Translations under genes and position numbers: made by a program | Notes under the pieces: model-generated | Databases searched by the model: none | Told to the model about the DNA's origin: nothing | Seen by the model: the letters and a program-made list of their open reading frames with translations, nothing else | Part shown: positions 16,703 through 22,928 of the stretch, in pieces | Numbering within the stretch: position 1 is the first letter of the stretch | Layout of the letters: the number at the start of each line of letters is the position of its first letter | Assembly: GCA_017437285.1 (NCBI GenBank) | Contig: JAFSBM010000068.1 | Coordinates: 1 to 34,365 of the forward strand | Source of the DNA: Ruminococcus sp. | GTDB taxonomy: Bacteria; Bacillota; Clostridia; Oscillospirales; Ruminococcaceae | DNA: 34,365 nucleotides | Direction of reading: 5' to 3'

Positions 16703-16852
16703 AAATATAGGAATATTATGGTTATTGCACGTACTTTCACAAAAGTGCGTGGAAATTTTATATTTTCCTCAGATGCCCGACATAAAAAGAAATAGGCATA
16801 AAGATATAAAGAAAGAACGAGTGTGAACAAACATTCGGAGGAATACAACAAA

Positions 16853-17809
16853 ATGAAAAAAATAAAAGTAAGACCTATGCACCTCTTATCTACGTTGGTG
16901 GTGTGTGTGTTGGTCATTTTCGCAACCGATTTCGGTGTGAGAATGATGAACCCAAGAAGTCTTATTGATGCCATTGAGGAGCATGGATGTTTTGTTCCGG
17001 TGGGCGGTGTCAAAAAGGACTTGCCAACACTTGTAAGCGGTGAAGAAGGGGAAATTCCGTCATCTGCCGGCACAGTTGCAGAACCGGGATGCACCTCAAA
17101 AGCGGTCACTCAGGATGATATTTTTAAGGGCAGACTTGTTCCATATCGTGGAGATATGCAGGTTATTCCCGATGTTTCTGAAAGCAGCGTAAATCTTTCC
17201 CAGTACAAGAACAATTATTATACAACATTAGGCGAGGAGATGCCTCTTACAAAGGATGCTGCTGACGGATTCAATGCTTTAATGGAGGCTTACAATAAGG
17301 CTACAGACCTTGTTGATTTTGCAGTATATGGCACAGAAGTCACTAATAACGGTGTAGGTTCGCCCTGTCCTATTCCTTTTTCAGAAAGTAAGGCAGGAAA
17401 TTCAATTGACCTTGCTGTTATGGGTTACGGCTCGATTATTTCATATGACGGACTGGACGCTGAAAAGTGGGTTATCGACAACTGTCACAATTATGGCTAT
17501 GTTGTGAGATATCCGCAGAATAAGGCGGAAATCACAGGTGAGCAGTATTGCCCTTGGCATATCAGATATGTGGGAATTCCTCATTCTATGGTGATGAAGT
17601 CAAATAACTGGTGCCTTGAAGAATATATCGGATACCTCCGCAGCTTTACAAGGGATAATCCCTTTTTGTGCAGCGTAAACGACAGAAATTACGAGATTTA
17701 CAGCGTTCCGTCAATGGGCGAGGTTACATATTTAAGTGTTCCGCTTGCAGGAAATTATGAGATTTCAGGCGACGGCACGACTGGTTATATAATTACAATT
17801 GAAAAGTAA
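16853..17809 (+). CDS. VanY-type D,D-carboxypeptidase-like protein, probably catalytically dead
   Basis: A 318-residue membrane-anchored protein (hydrophobic helix at about 11-26). Residues 105-260 match the VanY/M15B fold: a tail region PLTKDAADGFNALMEAY, then the zinc site segment and WVIDNCHNYGYVVRYPQNKAEITG. In active enzymes the motifs are SxHxxGxAxD and EPWH. Here they read SESKAGNSID (177-186) and CPWH (233-236). The first zinc His is Ser179 and the catalytic Glu is Cys233, while Asp186 and His236 remain. Hydrolysis is therefore unlikely; it may bind peptidoglycan stems or act as a sensor. A small beta domain closes the protein (about 275-318). The ATG at 16853 has CGGAGGAA upstream; an in-frame GTG at 16823 is less likely. 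It is monocistronic. Confidence 0.82.
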   Translation: MKKIKVRPMHLLSTLVVCVLVIFATDFGVRMMNPRSLIDAIEEHGCFVPVGGVKKDLPTLVSGEEGEIPSSAGTVAEPGCTSKAVTQDDIFKGRLVPYRGDMQVIPDVSESSVNLSQYKNNYYTTLGEEMPLTKDAADGFNALMEAYNKATDLVDFAVYGTEVTNNGVGSPCPIPFSESKAGNSIDLAVMGYGSIISYDGLDAEKWVIDNCHNYGYVVRYPQNKAEITGEQYCPWHIRYVGIPHSMVMKSNNWCLEEYIGYLRSFTRDNPFLCSVNDRNYEIYSVPSMGEVTYLSVPLAGNYEISGDGTTGYIITIEK

Positions 17810-17813
17810 AATC

Positions 17814-17843
17814 AAGCACTCTATGAAAATAGGGTGCTTTTTG
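17814..17843 (+). terminator. rho-independent terminator of the VanY-like gene
   Basis: AAGCACTCTAT/ATAGGGTGCTT is an 11-bp stem (one wobble pair) with a GAAA tetraloop, followed by TTTTT, 4 bases past the stop. Confidence 0.88.
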
Positions 17844-18032: not shown

Positions 18033-20264
18033 ATGAAAAAATTGACATCATTTCTTTGCGGATTATCAATTATCTGCTCAATGACAGCCTGCACCGAAAA
18101 GCCGCAGGAATCAGAGGTTATTCCCGTAACTCCTGTTGTATCGCAGACGATTTACAAATCAGAGGAATTTCCCATGCCCGATGATTACAACGGATTGATT
18201 TCGTTGGATTATTCCGCAGAAAAGGGAACTGTGCTGATTTATTACAATGGGGATTATGAGTATTTTGCTCAGTATTACGACGAAAATCTCAATCCGACGG
18301 AAAAAATTTCACTTAGGCAGGGAAAATTAGAATACGGCACAAGAGCATATGTTGCTCCTGACAGCACAATTCATCTTGTAACTATTTATGGCGAATATGA
18401 CGGAGATGCTGCCACGGATTATGAGGAATATTACGCAAACGCTGAGCCGAAAATTGAAATTTACAGCTACAATTCAAAGGGTGAAGAAATCGGGTATCTC
18501 AATGTTGAGGATATTGCCGATTCCTTTAATCTGATGAACAGCGTTACGGATATGATGTATTGCAATGAGAAATATATTCTCAATTTCTTTGACAACAAAT
18601 ATGTAATTGACAAAAACGGAATTATGACAGAATTTGAAAATGAAATGAATACGGTTTGTGCCGTTGACACCGAGGGGCGGCTTGTGGCTTCAAGGTGGGA
18701 GGATTACTGTTTTGTTGATGAAAGTCTGAAATATTCCGATAATCCCACAAAATTCGGGGAATATATACGCAGGTCGGGGGAAATCTTCACAGGTGCAGGG
18801 GATTACAGCCTTTTCGCAGTTATGCAGCGTGGAATTTATGGCATTACAGCGGACGGACAGGTTTTACAGCTTCTCGATTTTGCGGCTTCACGAATAAGCG
18901 CTAATACCCTCTATGATTACGCCTATGTGGGTGAGGGGAAATTTGCTGCGTTTTATTCGGGAGATATGGGAGAAACCGCAATTCTGCTTATGACCGTTCG
19001 CCCCGATGACTATGTTGAAAACCGTGAAAAAGTTGTTCTTGCCCTTGACGGTATAAATACATCACATGACGAACTTGCAGCAGCTTTCAATAAATCAAAC
19101 GATGAATATGAAGTTGAAATCAGAAATTACGAATACGGCACAGATGCACTGCGAGCTGATGTGCTGTCGGATAATTCACCCGATGTTTATTGTTATTCAG
19201 ACCTTGATACAGTTCAGAGCTACACAAATATCGGTGCATTTGCCGATATGTACGAGCTTATGGACACCTATGGCGGATTGTCCCGTGAGGATATTATGCC
19301 AAATGTCCTTGAAGCCTACGAAACAGGGGATAAACTTTACTTTATGTCAGATACATTCTATGTAAACTGCAATATAGCGTGGAGTGAGATGCTTGGCAGA
19401 GAGTACAGCAACTGGACTCTGGACGAATTTTTCGAGGTTGTTGAAAATATACCCGAAAATATGTATATCGGCGATAAATGGTCATTTGACAGCAGACACG
19501 GATTATTCTGCTATCTCTGTCGTAATAACGTGGAGCAATGGGTGGATTTTGACAATAACACCTGTGATTTTACCTCCGAAAGCTTTATAAAAATGCTTAA
19601 ATTATGCCGTGATTTGAAACTTGTATTTGATGAAATGCCCGATTATCAGAATATGACTCAGGAAGAAACCGCTGCTTTGGAGGAAATGAATGCGGCATTG
19701 TTAAGAAATAAAGAGGCTCTGCTTGGTTGGAGCGGAGGTTCTATGTCTTGGCTGCAAGGTCCCGGCTACGCAGCACATTTTGGCTTTAAAATGGAGGATA
19801 TAACACTTGTAGCAAATCCTACTAAGGATGGCGGAGGAACGATAAACTGCGGTAATTATTATTCTGTTCTCAAAAGCGGAAACTGTACCGAGGGCGGCTG
19901 GGCGTATATGTGTTGGCTGCTTGGAGAAAAAAAGCAGGAGGAAATCGGTTTTCATATGTTTCCAGTCCGCAAGGACGCTTTTTATAAGTGTACGGAAAAA
20001 CAGCGTGCGGCAACGGAAAATGGTTCAGCGGCAGGCGGTATGAATGGTTTAAGATTTGAGTTCGACCCCACTATTACAGAGGAACAGTATGAGTACATCA
20101 TCGGATTTATTGAAAAGTGTAACGTTTTAGCAGGACTTCGTTCAAAAGTGGGAGAAATTCTCGACGATGAATACAAAAGCTTTGCCGCAGGAGAGGTAAC
20201 TGCCGAAGAATGTGCAGAGCGTATTCAGAGCAGAATGGAGATTTATCTCAGCGAAAATTCATAA
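18033..20264 (+). CDS. large solute-binding-type lipoprotein with extra N-terminal sensor-like domain
   Basis: A 743-residue lipoprotein: signal peptide with lipobox SMTAC and lipidated Cys20. About the last 415 residues (from EKVVLALDGINTSHDELAAAFNKSNDEYEVEI on) resemble family 1 extracellular solute-binding proteins of sugar ABC importers. These carry the usual DVYCYSDLD, W-rich ligand segments (NWTLDEFFEVVENIPE, WSGGSMSWLQGPGY) and a closing Glu-rich helix. Residues 21-320 are extra, with repeated short beta strands and Asp/Tyr-rich turns (GTVLIYYNGDYEYFAQYYDENL), perhaps a beta-propeller. Standard binding proteins are 420-550 residues. No permease or ATPase is nearby, so it may serve a remote importer or act in sensing. 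AAGGAGG lies seven bases ahead of the ATG. Confidence 0.75.
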   Translation: MKKLTSFLCGLSIICSMTACTEKPQESEVIPVTPVVSQTIYKSEEFPMPDDYNGLISLDYSAEKGTVLIYYNGDYEYFAQYYDENLNPTEKISLRQGKLEYGTRAYVAPDSTIHLVTIYGEYDGDAATDYEEYYANAEPKIEIYSYNSKGEEIGYLNVEDIADSFNLMNSVTDMMYCNEKYILNFFDNKYVIDKNGIMTEFENEMNTVCAVDTEGRLVASRWEDYCFVDESLKYSDNPTKFGEYIRRSGEIFTGAGDYSLFAVMQRGIYGITADGQVLQLLDFAASRISANTLYDYAYVGEGKFAAFYSGDMGETAILLMTVRPDDYVENREKVVLALDGINTSHDELAAAFNKSNDEYEVEIRNYEYGTDALRADVLSDNSPDVYCYSDLDTVQSYTNIGAFADMYELMDTYGGLSREDIMPNVLEAYETGDKLYFMSDTFYVNCNIAWSEMLGREYSNWTLDEFFEVVENIPENMYIGDKWSFDSRHGLFCYLCRNNVEQWVDFDNNTCDFTSESFIKMLKLCRDLKLVFDEMPDYQNMTQEETAALEEMNAALLRNKEALLGWSGGSMSWLQGPGYAAHFGFKMEDITLVANPTKDGGGTINCGNYYSVLKSGNCTEGGWAYMCWLLGEKKQEEIGFHMFPVRKDAFYKCTEKQRAATENGSAAGGMNGLRFEFDPTITEEQYEYIIGFIEKCNVLAGLRSKVGEILDDEYKSFAAGEVTAEECAERIQSRMEIYLSENS

Positions 20265-20302: not shown

Positions 20303-21439
20303 ATGAGAAAAATAATAGCTGTTTTTATATCATTTGTCGTATTATTGACAATGGTTAGTCCGTTGTATACTATAGCCGATGATACAACAAATTCCGCAAA
20401 AGCATATGTTCTTATGGAAGCTACCACACAGACCGTTCTGGACAGCGAAAATGCCGATTTACGGCTTAATGTGGGCTATTTATCAAAACTTATGACAATT
20501 CTGCTCATAGCTGAGGATATTGAAACAGGAAAATATCTTATGTCAACGGAACTTACAGCGTCATCGGCGGTAACAGGCACAAAAGGTGCTGTCATATGGC
20601 TTGAAGCAGGGGATAAAATGACTGTCGAGGAACTTTTGAAAGCGGTGATTATCGGCAATGCCAATGACGCTGTAACCGTTCTTGCGGAGAAGTCGGAGCA
20701 GTCCGTTGAAAATTTCGTAATGCGTATGAATACCGAGGCTTTTGACCTTGGATTGCGGAATACAGCCTTTTATTCCCCTTATGGATATTATGACGAAAGG
20801 GAATACACAACGGCTCACGATATGGCGGTGATTTGCTCAAAGCTTGCGGAATACGGTTTTCTCCGCCCGATTTTCAAAACCTGGCGTGATTTCGTAAAAT
20901 CTGGGCAAACTGAACTTGTAAGCGAAAATAAACTTGCCAATTCCTATGAAAGGCACGTGGGATTCAAGGCGGCACATTCCGAGGAAACGGGATATAACAT
21001 AGCTGAGGGCGGTATGGACGAAGCAGGAACCTGTTATATTTCCGTCGTTCTCGGAGCAGACAGCGAGGACGAAATGTACAGACAGGCGAAAAGCCTTATA
21101 CGAAGCGGCTTTACGGATTATAAAGTGACGGCTACTATGTTTCCCGATGAAATGTTAATGCCTATAAAAGTCCGTGGAGGCTGCGATTCAGCGGTGGAAA
21201 TCCGCATAAGAGGGCAGAGCAGACTTGTAGTTCCAAAAGCTGTCAAGGAGCTTGGCACAGCGGTAGTTCTCCCCGAATATCTCACAGCTCCCGTGAAAAG
21301 CGGTCAGAAAATCGGTACGGCAGTTTTTTACAGCGACAAGAACTGCGTCTGTGAAATCGACATTATAACCGCTGGAAGTGTGGAAAAACTATCCTTTGCA
21401 TATGTGCTTAAAAAAACATTGTGCAATATTATGAAATAA
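20303..21439 (+). CDS. PBP5/DacA-like (peptidase S11 fold) protein lacking catalytic motifs
   Basis: A 378-residue exported protein: signal peptide at about 1-25, S11 D-Ala-D-Ala carboxypeptidase fold at about 32-270, then the beta-rich C-terminal domain of PBP5 (about 275-360). Family landmarks remain (AYVLMEATTQTVLDSENAD, GAVIWLEAGDKMTVEELLKAVIIGNANDAVTVLAE, NTAFYSPYGYYDEREYTTAHDMAVI). All three active-site motifs are altered: SxxK is YLSK (Tyr59, Lys62), SxN is NAN (119-121) and KTG is KAA (222-224). Without the Ser nucleophile it cannot form an acyl-enzyme, so it is probably a structural or regulatory pseudoenzyme. The frame is intact and the fold well kept, which argues against decay. 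It lies 38 bases after the lipoprotein gene, probably on the same transcript. Confidence 0.85.
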   Translation: MRKIIAVFISFVVLLTMVSPLYTIADDTTNSAKAYVLMEATTQTVLDSENADLRLNVGYLSKLMTILLIAEDIETGKYLMSTELTASSAVTGTKGAVIWLEAGDKMTVEELLKAVIIGNANDAVTVLAEKSEQSVENFVMRMNTEAFDLGLRNTAFYSPYGYYDEREYTTAHDMAVICSKLAEYGFLRPIFKTWRDFVKSGQTELVSENKLANSYERHVGFKAAHSEETGYNIAEGGMDEAGTCYISVVLGADSEDEMYRQAKSLIRSGFTDYKVTATMFPDEMLMPIKVRGGCDSAVEIRIRGQSRLVVPKAVKELGTAVVLPEYLTAPVKSGQKIGTAVFYSDKNCVCEIDIITAGSVEKLSFAYVLKKTLCNIMK

Positions 21440-21533: not shown

Positions 21534-21593
21534 TAAGAAGATAATTTTATAGTGCGGTTAGATTTGCTTTCTCGCACAATGGAGGTACAAAAA

Positions 21594-22928
21594 ATGTCAT
21601 TAAAGCTTAACACAAAATATCTTCAGGATTTTGTAAATGCCGACGAAATGGCAGGCATTAAGGCACAGATTGAAACTGCTGCTGAGATGCTCCACAACAA
21701 AACAGGTCTTGGCAATGATTTCCTCGGCTGGGTAAATCTTCCCACAGATTACGACAAAGAGGAATTTGCTCGTATAAAGGCTGCTGCTGAGAAAATTAAG
21801 GCAAATTCTGATATTCTCATCGTTATCGGTATCGGCGGTTCATACCTCGGTGCAAGAGCTGCAATCGAGCTTCTCAAATCGCCTTTCTATAATAATATGA
21901 AGAAAGATACACCTGACATCTATTATGTTGGCAACAGCATCAATCCCACATACCTCAACGAAGTAATCGCTCTCTGCGAGGGTAAGGATTTCTCTGTAAA
22001 CGTAATTTCAAAGTCAGGTACAACAACTGAGCCTGCTCTTGCTTTCAGAATCTTCAAGAAAATGGTTGAGGATAAGTACGGCAAGGAAGAGGCTAAGAAC
22101 CGTATTTTCGCCACAACTGACAAGGCAAGAGGAACTCTCAAGAACCTCTCTGACGCTGAGGGTTATGAAACATTTGTAATTCCCGATGACGTTGGCGGAC
22201 GTTTCTCTGTTCTTACAGCAGTTGGTCTTCTTCCTATCGCAGTTGCAGGCTGTGACATTGACGCTCTTATGAAGGGTGCTGCAAAGGCTCAGCAGGAACT
22301 CTGTGCTGACTTCGATAACAACGACTGCTACAAGTACGCTGCACTCAGAAACATCCTTTACAGAAAGGGCAAGTCTGTGGAAATGCTCGTTTCCTACGAT
22401 CCAAGCTTTGTAATGATGTCAGAGTGGTACAAGCAGCTCTTCGGCGAGAGCGAGGGTAAGGACAACAAGGGTATTTTCCCTGCATCCGTTACATTCTCAA
22501 CAGACCTTCACTCCATGGGACAGTACATTCAGGACGGTGCAAGAATTATGTTTGAAACCGTTGTTGATATCAAGACTCCCAAGCAGGACCTTTTCCTTGA
22601 AGCTGACGAGGAAAATCTCGACGGTCTTAACTTCCTCACAAATCAGAATATGTCCGTTGTAAACCGCAAGGCATTTGAGGGTACAGTTCTTGCTCACACA
22701 GAGGGCGGCGTTCCCAATATGATTCTTGAGCTTGCTGATACAACTGAGGAAAGCGTTGGATATATGATTTACTTCTTCGAGAAGGCTTGCGCTGTTTCAG
22801 GTTATGTTCTCGGCGTTAATCCTTTCAATCAGCCAGGTGTTGAGAGCTACAAGTCAAATATGTTCGCTCTCCTCGGTAAGCCCGGCTATGAGGGTGCAAA
22901 GGCTGAATTAGAGGCTAAATTGGGCTAA
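21594..22928 (+). CDS. pgi: glucose-6-phosphate isomerase
   Basis: A 444-residue cytosolic glycolytic enzyme interconverting glucose-6-phosphate and fructose-6-phosphate, of the short Gram-positive type. Motifs include [17 protein letters not shown] (about 78-94), the phosphate loop [33 protein letters not shown], the DLHSMGQ segment and the C-terminal [12 protein letters not shown] with the active-site Lys. The ATG at 21594 was chosen for the GGAGGTACAAAAA just upstream; an earlier in-frame start at 21552 has no such site. Codons are strongly biased to a preferred set (CTC/CTT, AAG, GGT), pointing to high expression. Next to glgP it would channel glycogen-derived glucose phosphate into glycolysis. 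Confidence 0.97.

Follow-up and report, generated by a model that had tools for sequence, protein, structure and literature searches.

A conserved, probably non-catalytic S11 carboxypeptidase homologue in Ruminococcus and its VanY-type neighbour

Described systems and the window protein

PBP5-type D,D-carboxypeptidases (family S11; DacA, DacC and DacD) work through an acyl-enzyme route that needs the serine of the SxxK motif, the serine of SxN and the threonine of KTG. To our knowledge, regulation of wall hydrolases by inactive homologues is known mainly for LytM-domain proteins and a few other folds. In the excerpts available, DipM is an inactive LytM-domain regulator, with EnvC and NlpD named alongside it (PMC10336132), and Helicobacter pylori Csd2, an M23 protein that has no zinc bound, forms a pair with Csd1, a homologue that does bind zinc (PMC5053510). 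The inactive forms in the excerpt of PMC13059705 are laboratory mutants, and the relevant phrase in that of PMC6107284 concerns a GGDEF domain. Literature titles and abstract beginnings did not turn up a comparable S11 or VanY family that is inactive in nature; this does not imply absence from print.

The window analyzed here is a stretch of 34,365 nucleotides from a Ruminococcus sp. genome (contig JAFSBM010000068.1 of assembly GCA_017437285.1). Its gene at 20303..21439 (+ strand), here called PBPx, encodes a putative pseudo D,D-carboxypeptidase of the S11/PBP5 fold. The reading frame starts with ATG and is open over 378 amino acids, and a signal peptide is recognizable by eye. Both Pfam domains score above their curated cut-offs, Peptidase_S11 at residues 28-253 (1.3e-37; 130 bits against 27.6) and PBP5_C at residues 287-362 (5.8e-8; 33.2 bits against 21.2), which places PBPx in the S11 family by homology and bears out an earlier note on this DNA, made from the sequence alone, that described a kept fold and C-terminal domain in a clean frame. 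Against the named DacA, DacC and DacD equivalogs of NCBIfam, the best score of PBPx was 115.8 bits, below the curated cut-off of 765. Where an amphipathic C-terminal anchor was sought, the 13 C-terminal windows printed had helical moments of at most 0.31, the maximum for the protein being 0.73.

Residues 31-362 align with solved PBP5-type structures, the top match being 4k91 (4.8e-31). This structure-based alignment confirmed the substitutions that the earlier note had described: SxxK has become YLSK (residues 59-62; 20477..20488, + strand), SGN has become NAN (119-121; 20657..20665, + strand) and KTG has become KAA (222-224; 20966..20974, + strand), the last followed by His225. The description of all three motifs as replaced needs qualifying, since each replacement is partial: Lys62, Asn121 and Lys222 are retained. 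PBPx has neither the SxxK serine, nor the SxN serine, nor KTG. Judging from S11 chemistry, no acyl-enzyme would form on Tyr59, so that PBPx would neither trim pentapeptides nor be acylated by penicillin. PBPx has in common with DacA, DacC and DacD the S11 and PBP5_C domains and an export signal (by eye), and it occupies the same genomic place as canonical S11 genes in other genera; it differs in that the nucleophilic serine, the SxN serine and the threonine and glycine of KTG are all substituted, in an old and conserved state. To annotate this gene as a carboxypeptidase because its domains match would misstate its mechanism.

The window genome has six S11 genes, of which L001, L004, L005 and L006 are standard by motif and L002 (contig C76) is another degenerate type. 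Together with L341-L370, L002 represents a second dead S11 lineage of proteins of about 470 amino acids with a C-terminal hydrophobic stretch, in which the SxxK region reads PGPLVN or close to it, the SxN region is mostly SSxE, and KT is kept. Proteins of this type were matched in 52 of 60 congeners, and the SxxK serine and lysine were both absent in all 30 fetched loci, the window genome's own copy included.

Conservation and ancestry of the altered motifs

A search of 125 Ruminococcus genomes gave matches in 124. Counted by hand from the match list, orthologs of PBPx are present in 104 genomes, 97 of them full-length (the window included) and seven as fragments only; all 97 full-length rows span at least 99% of window residues 31-365. 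The remaining 20 matched genomes had only weak matches to other S11 genes, and some of these are good assemblies (e.g., G119), so PBPx is evidently not indispensable. Among the best 80 of 214 matches listed, named organisms with a close match were mostly labelled Ruminococcus, many of them R. flavefaciens.

Within the genus the altered residues are strongly conserved. Lys62, Gly118, Asn119, Asn121, Asp122 and Lys222 are each found in 97/97 rows and His225 in 96/97, and none of the 97 sequences has SxN, KTG or a threonine at position 223, where Ala (93), Glu (2) and Val (2) occur. Position 59 is Tyr in 89 rows and otherwise Phe (2), Ala (2), Trp, Cys, His or Ser (one each), the single serine carrier being L080. 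Position 224 is more variable (Cys 48, Ser 24, Ala 20, Val 3, Thr 2). In an alignment of 67 sequences (A1), nine of the 32 invariant columns fall within the 21 positions of the motif segments (p 1e-5), indicating that the cleft is still constrained. The median dN/dS of PBPx was 0.104 over 33 genus pairs with pS below 0.5, and 0.075 between the window and its nearest relative. The invariance of Asn119 and the lack of any threonine at position 223 exclude chance or sequencing error in one genome as the source of these motifs.

Beyond the genus, a family-wide profile search at 1e-40 matched at least 247 of 297 genomes, among the matches listed, and 80 non-genus matches were retrieved, hand-picked from the better part of that list. 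Asn replaces the first serine of SxN (NxN) in 54 of these 80 proteins (35/40 in one batch and 19/40 in the other), which span 27 other genera. Of the other 26, 23 carry the canonical Ser/Ser/KTG set and three (L254, L282 and L296) have odd single motifs. In the 54 NxN proteins Lys62, Asn119, Asn121 and Lys222 are again invariant, Thr223 is kept in none and Gly224 in 27; position 59 is Thr in 23, His in 13, Ser in 11, Ala in 3, Tyr in 2, and Val and Gln in one each. The serine or threonine at position 59 and the retained Gly224 suggest that some NxN members could keep weak chemistry.

Both phylogenies were built with the motif columns masked, and both recovered the NxN proteins as one clade. 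A quick tree of 110 rows grouped 71/71 NxN rows (SH-aLRT 94), and a mixture-model tree grouped 40/40 (support 95/95) in a set reduced by hand to 69 rows; the 41 rows dropped included four S11 genes of the window genome other than PBPx, and several NxN rows on long branches. When all odd motifs were scored as “pseudo,” the quick tree needed four changes rather than one, and the three odd rows fell elsewhere. The altered second motif, with Asn119 in 97/97 genus rows, is the hallmark of this clade; of the other residues whose conservation the earlier note had asked about, Tyr59 occurs in 89/97 and position 224 varies.

Canonical and NxN S11 genes alike lie mostly upstream of the gene for glucose-6-phosphate isomerase (PGI; 21552..22928, + strand, in the window), also in another family of the order. 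The presence of Ser/Ser/KTG enzymes upstream of PGI in other genera indicates that catalysis was lost in place, PBPx being the descendant of an active S11 enzyme that occupied this locus. In an ancestor of part of the family, the SxN of a standard PBP5-type D,D-carboxypeptidase would have become NxN and its KTG mostly K-A-x; the nucleophile position would then have come to hold Ser, Thr, His, Ala or, within Ruminococcus, Tyr, with no change at the two active-site lysines or at the second Asn of motif 2.

Of 245 genomes covered by a profile search across the order, 13 had matches at E 1e-88, and the eight of these from outside the family were all canonical. A DNA pattern for GNANDA was searched in 394 genomes of the order and 348 of the phylum; among the 40 returned loci inspected were seven S11 reading frames, six within the family (L397-L400, L403, L404) and one, L387, in another family of the order. 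L387 is an unrelated degenerate S11 protein (80 bits) that contains GNANDA and, as judged by eye, has Ala where SxxK has its serine; it possibly represents an independent loss.

Possible roles of PBPx

It seems probable that PBPx is a pseudo-carboxypeptidase, arising by an old loss of catalysis in place, whose task would be to bind stem peptides, to regulate wall enzymes, or both. A retained non-enzymatic job, as the earlier note proposed, gains support from the genus-wide altered residues, a dN/dS of about 0.1 and the single clade; enzyme activity could come from the four standard-motif S11 copies of the window genome. Retention of the two lysines and Asn121 speaks for a continuing function of the cleft; less surely, this cleft, still polar, may accommodate a peptide ligand (the stem peptide) or an enzyme partner. 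PBPx might then be an exported protein that regulates wall metabolism, or serves it as a receptor, without catalysis of its own, much as inactive LytM-domain proteins act on wall hydrolases. As far as the excerpt of PMC10336132 describes those regulators, they and PBPx are both exported peptidoglycan-peptidase folds with a degenerate catalytic site; they differ in fold, PBPx being of the S11 serine type and its neighbor M15B. DipM thus may serve as a model for the regulator reading, not as evidence for it (PMC10336132). The penicillin-binding fold, the classic antibiotic target, would then have turned, across many genera of a family from gut and rumen, into a conserved protein without catalysis; and if PBPx reads uncleaved D-Ala-D-Ala ends, wall-status sensing in these bacteria becomes a testable question.

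A rather unlikely alternative is that the fold was kept and the ligand changed, so that PBPx is an exported binder of a target other than D-Ala-D-Ala (a wall polymer, saccharide or surface protein) with its motif residues serving folding. Invariance of the motifs would also follow from a cleft kept for folding, and a number of positions that hardly vary among 31 canonical enzymes are less constrained in the 54 NxN proteins (163 Asp, 167 His, 208 Thr, 225 Thr, 226 Thr and 258 Arg, in window numbering with the canonical consensus residue). Against this stands the strict retention of Lys62, Asn121 and Lys222 in all 97 genus and 54 other sequences.

That same retention, with none of the three residues lost in any counted row, would suit a remodeled hydrolase that is still active, in which, for example, Lys62 activates water or Thr or Ser59 acts as nucleophile in sister genera; Ser or Thr does occupy position 59 in 34 of the 54 non-genus members. 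We regard this as improbable, given that position 59 in the genus is Tyr in 89 of 97 rows and otherwise F, A, W, C, H or S, that the SxN serine is gone by definition of the clade, and that Thr223 occurs in none of the 97 genus or 54 other rows.

A role as a non-acylating sensor of beta-lactams or glycopeptides is very unlikely: the S11 fold and a vanG-like stretch elsewhere in the same genome (L306) are compatible with it, but no sensor kinase was seen by eye among the adjoining window genes, and the beta-lactam sensors we know of in this clan retain the nucleophile, which counts against it. Decay of the gene was rejected as almost certainly wrong, for the standard-motif orthologs that the earlier note would have taken as a sign of it do exist in the same place upstream of PGI in other genera, but the altered form is an old clade whose substituted residues are conserved across 97 sequences with dN/dS of about 0.1.

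The VanY-type neighbor and surrounding genes

At the 80 genus loci with flanks (L037-L116), PGI was present in 79, the next small reading frame in 74 and a VanY-like gene in 67. In the window the latter is a VanY-type (M15B) protein at 16823..17809 (+ strand), with a Pfam VanY match and an N-terminal hydrophobic stretch by eye, that is dead by sequence. We take the His, Asp, His and Glu positions of VanY to have their M15B zinc-ligand and catalytic roles. Ser189 stands at the first zinc His position and Cys243 at that of the catalytic Glu, while Asp196 and His246 are kept. The zinc-site segment of the VanY profile (A2) aligns with that of VanXY (4f78) and YodJ (4ox3); the neighbor differs from VanY and VanXY of M15B in lacking the first zinc His (78/78 neighbors: Ser 68, Arg 6, Cys 3, Thr 1) and the catalytic Glu (78/78: Cys 75, Tyr 2, Ala 1), and the Asp and last His of the site are kept in 78/78. 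The median dN/dS of this gene was 0.12 over 30 pairs with pS below 0.55. Two former carboxypeptidases of unrelated fold, both conserved and apparently inactive, therefore adjoin in most genus loci; what is new here is that the usual upstream neighbor of PBPx is a second predicted dead carboxypeptidase, of the VanY type.

VanY and PBPx are co-oriented in 74 of 77 pairs, on opposite strands in three, with a median gap of 84 nt. Among the 74 same-strand pairs, 65 gaps of about 50-200 nt were scanned for terminators, and a terminator-like hairpin was found in 55, compared with three of 65 single-base shuffles; in the window a hairpin with a T tract lies 3′ of the VanY gene (17815..17838, + strand) according to our own finder, while a scan with other settings did not list it. 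These hairpins indicate that the two genes probably have separate transcripts, and a single VanY-PBPx operon was dropped as an interpretation. No VanY gene was detected next to any of the 40 non-genus S11 genes in one batch (35 of them NxN), which, together with the hairpins, weakens the case for functional pairing. The adjacency in most genus loci suggests a shared pathway for PBPx and the dead VanY, each probably transcribed on its own.

Another S11 gene often precedes VanY. The 80 genus loci L145-L224 contained 34 additional S11 reading frames. Two of these, at loci that have no VanY, are of the degenerate L002 type; at 32 loci the S11 gene precedes VanY and has the same orientation. All 32 keep the SxxK serine and lysine; the SxN-D region was read as SGAD in 25 (the pattern found nothing in seven), and the third motif is KTG in 30, the KAG read in two being perhaps an artefact of the pattern. 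The S11-VanY gap has a median of 70 nt, with a terminator-like hairpin in 0/32 when scanned without a shuffle control. Among 17 VanY loci of other genera, seven have an S11 gene directly upstream, as does the congener L323; in these eight (L323-L326, L328-L330 and L333) the gap again holds no terminator-like hairpin (0/8, likewise without a shuffle control), and VanY lacks both the first His and the Glu. The ten other-genus VanY genes without S11 in the 1.5-kb flank include six that are intact (L331, L334, L336, L337, L338 and L340) and four that are altered, L327 and L335 lacking both residues, L332 the His and L339 the Asp. The four altered cases argue against a strict rule linking S11 to a dead VanY; in many loci, though not in all of them, the dead VanY resembles a partner of an S11 enzyme.

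Csd1 and Csd2 are paired homologues in the excerpt of PMC5053510, whereas the tight gene pair described here joins an S11 enzyme to a dead VanY of unrelated fold. A tentative extension, which we think possible and less than even in likelihood, is that several D-Ala-D-Ala carboxypeptidases with two unrelated folds, each inactivated separately (NxN S11, PxxN S11 and VanY lacking His and Glu), together serve this family of gut Clostridia as exported, non-catalytic regulatory subunits or readers of stem peptides that are still uncleaved, the dead VanY partnering the S11 carboxypeptidase encoded directly upstream.

Between VanY and PBPx the window carries an oversized solute-binding-like lipoprotein gene (18033..20264, + strand) without a Pfam or NCBIfam hit. 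Among the loci examined, it lies upstream of PBPx only in the window and four close relatives (L146-L149); it occurs in 0/80 of the genus loci L037-L116, a set that included just one of the closest relatives. The lipoprotein gene is a lineage-local insertion between VanY and PBPx, and was rejected as a general functional partner. Its co-transcription with PBPx, which the earlier note had thought probable, is plausible in this genome, where the 38-nt gap has no terminator-like hairpin and a hairpin follows VanY, but does not extend to the other 80 loci.

In the nearest relative (L145, 1563-4749) the VanY-PBPx gap lacks the lipoprotein and holds, by eye, genes for a serine beta-lactamase-like membrane protein and a transporter-like protein on the opposite strand; the gap is perhaps an insertion hot spot. 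A fragment resembling the window lipoprotein by eye (L305:3-1367) adjoins a VanY gene with intact motifs. The window genome encodes a second dead VanY-type protein (L309, contig C119), with TDY and TYT at the zinc-site motifs, whose gene adjoins that of an apparent oligopeptide-binding protein. On contig C234, L306 carries consecutive genes that by eye are D-Ala ligase-like, VanXY-like and acyltransferase/racemase-like, an arrangement similar to that of vanG-type clusters, and its VanXY part is very similar to PDB 4f78.
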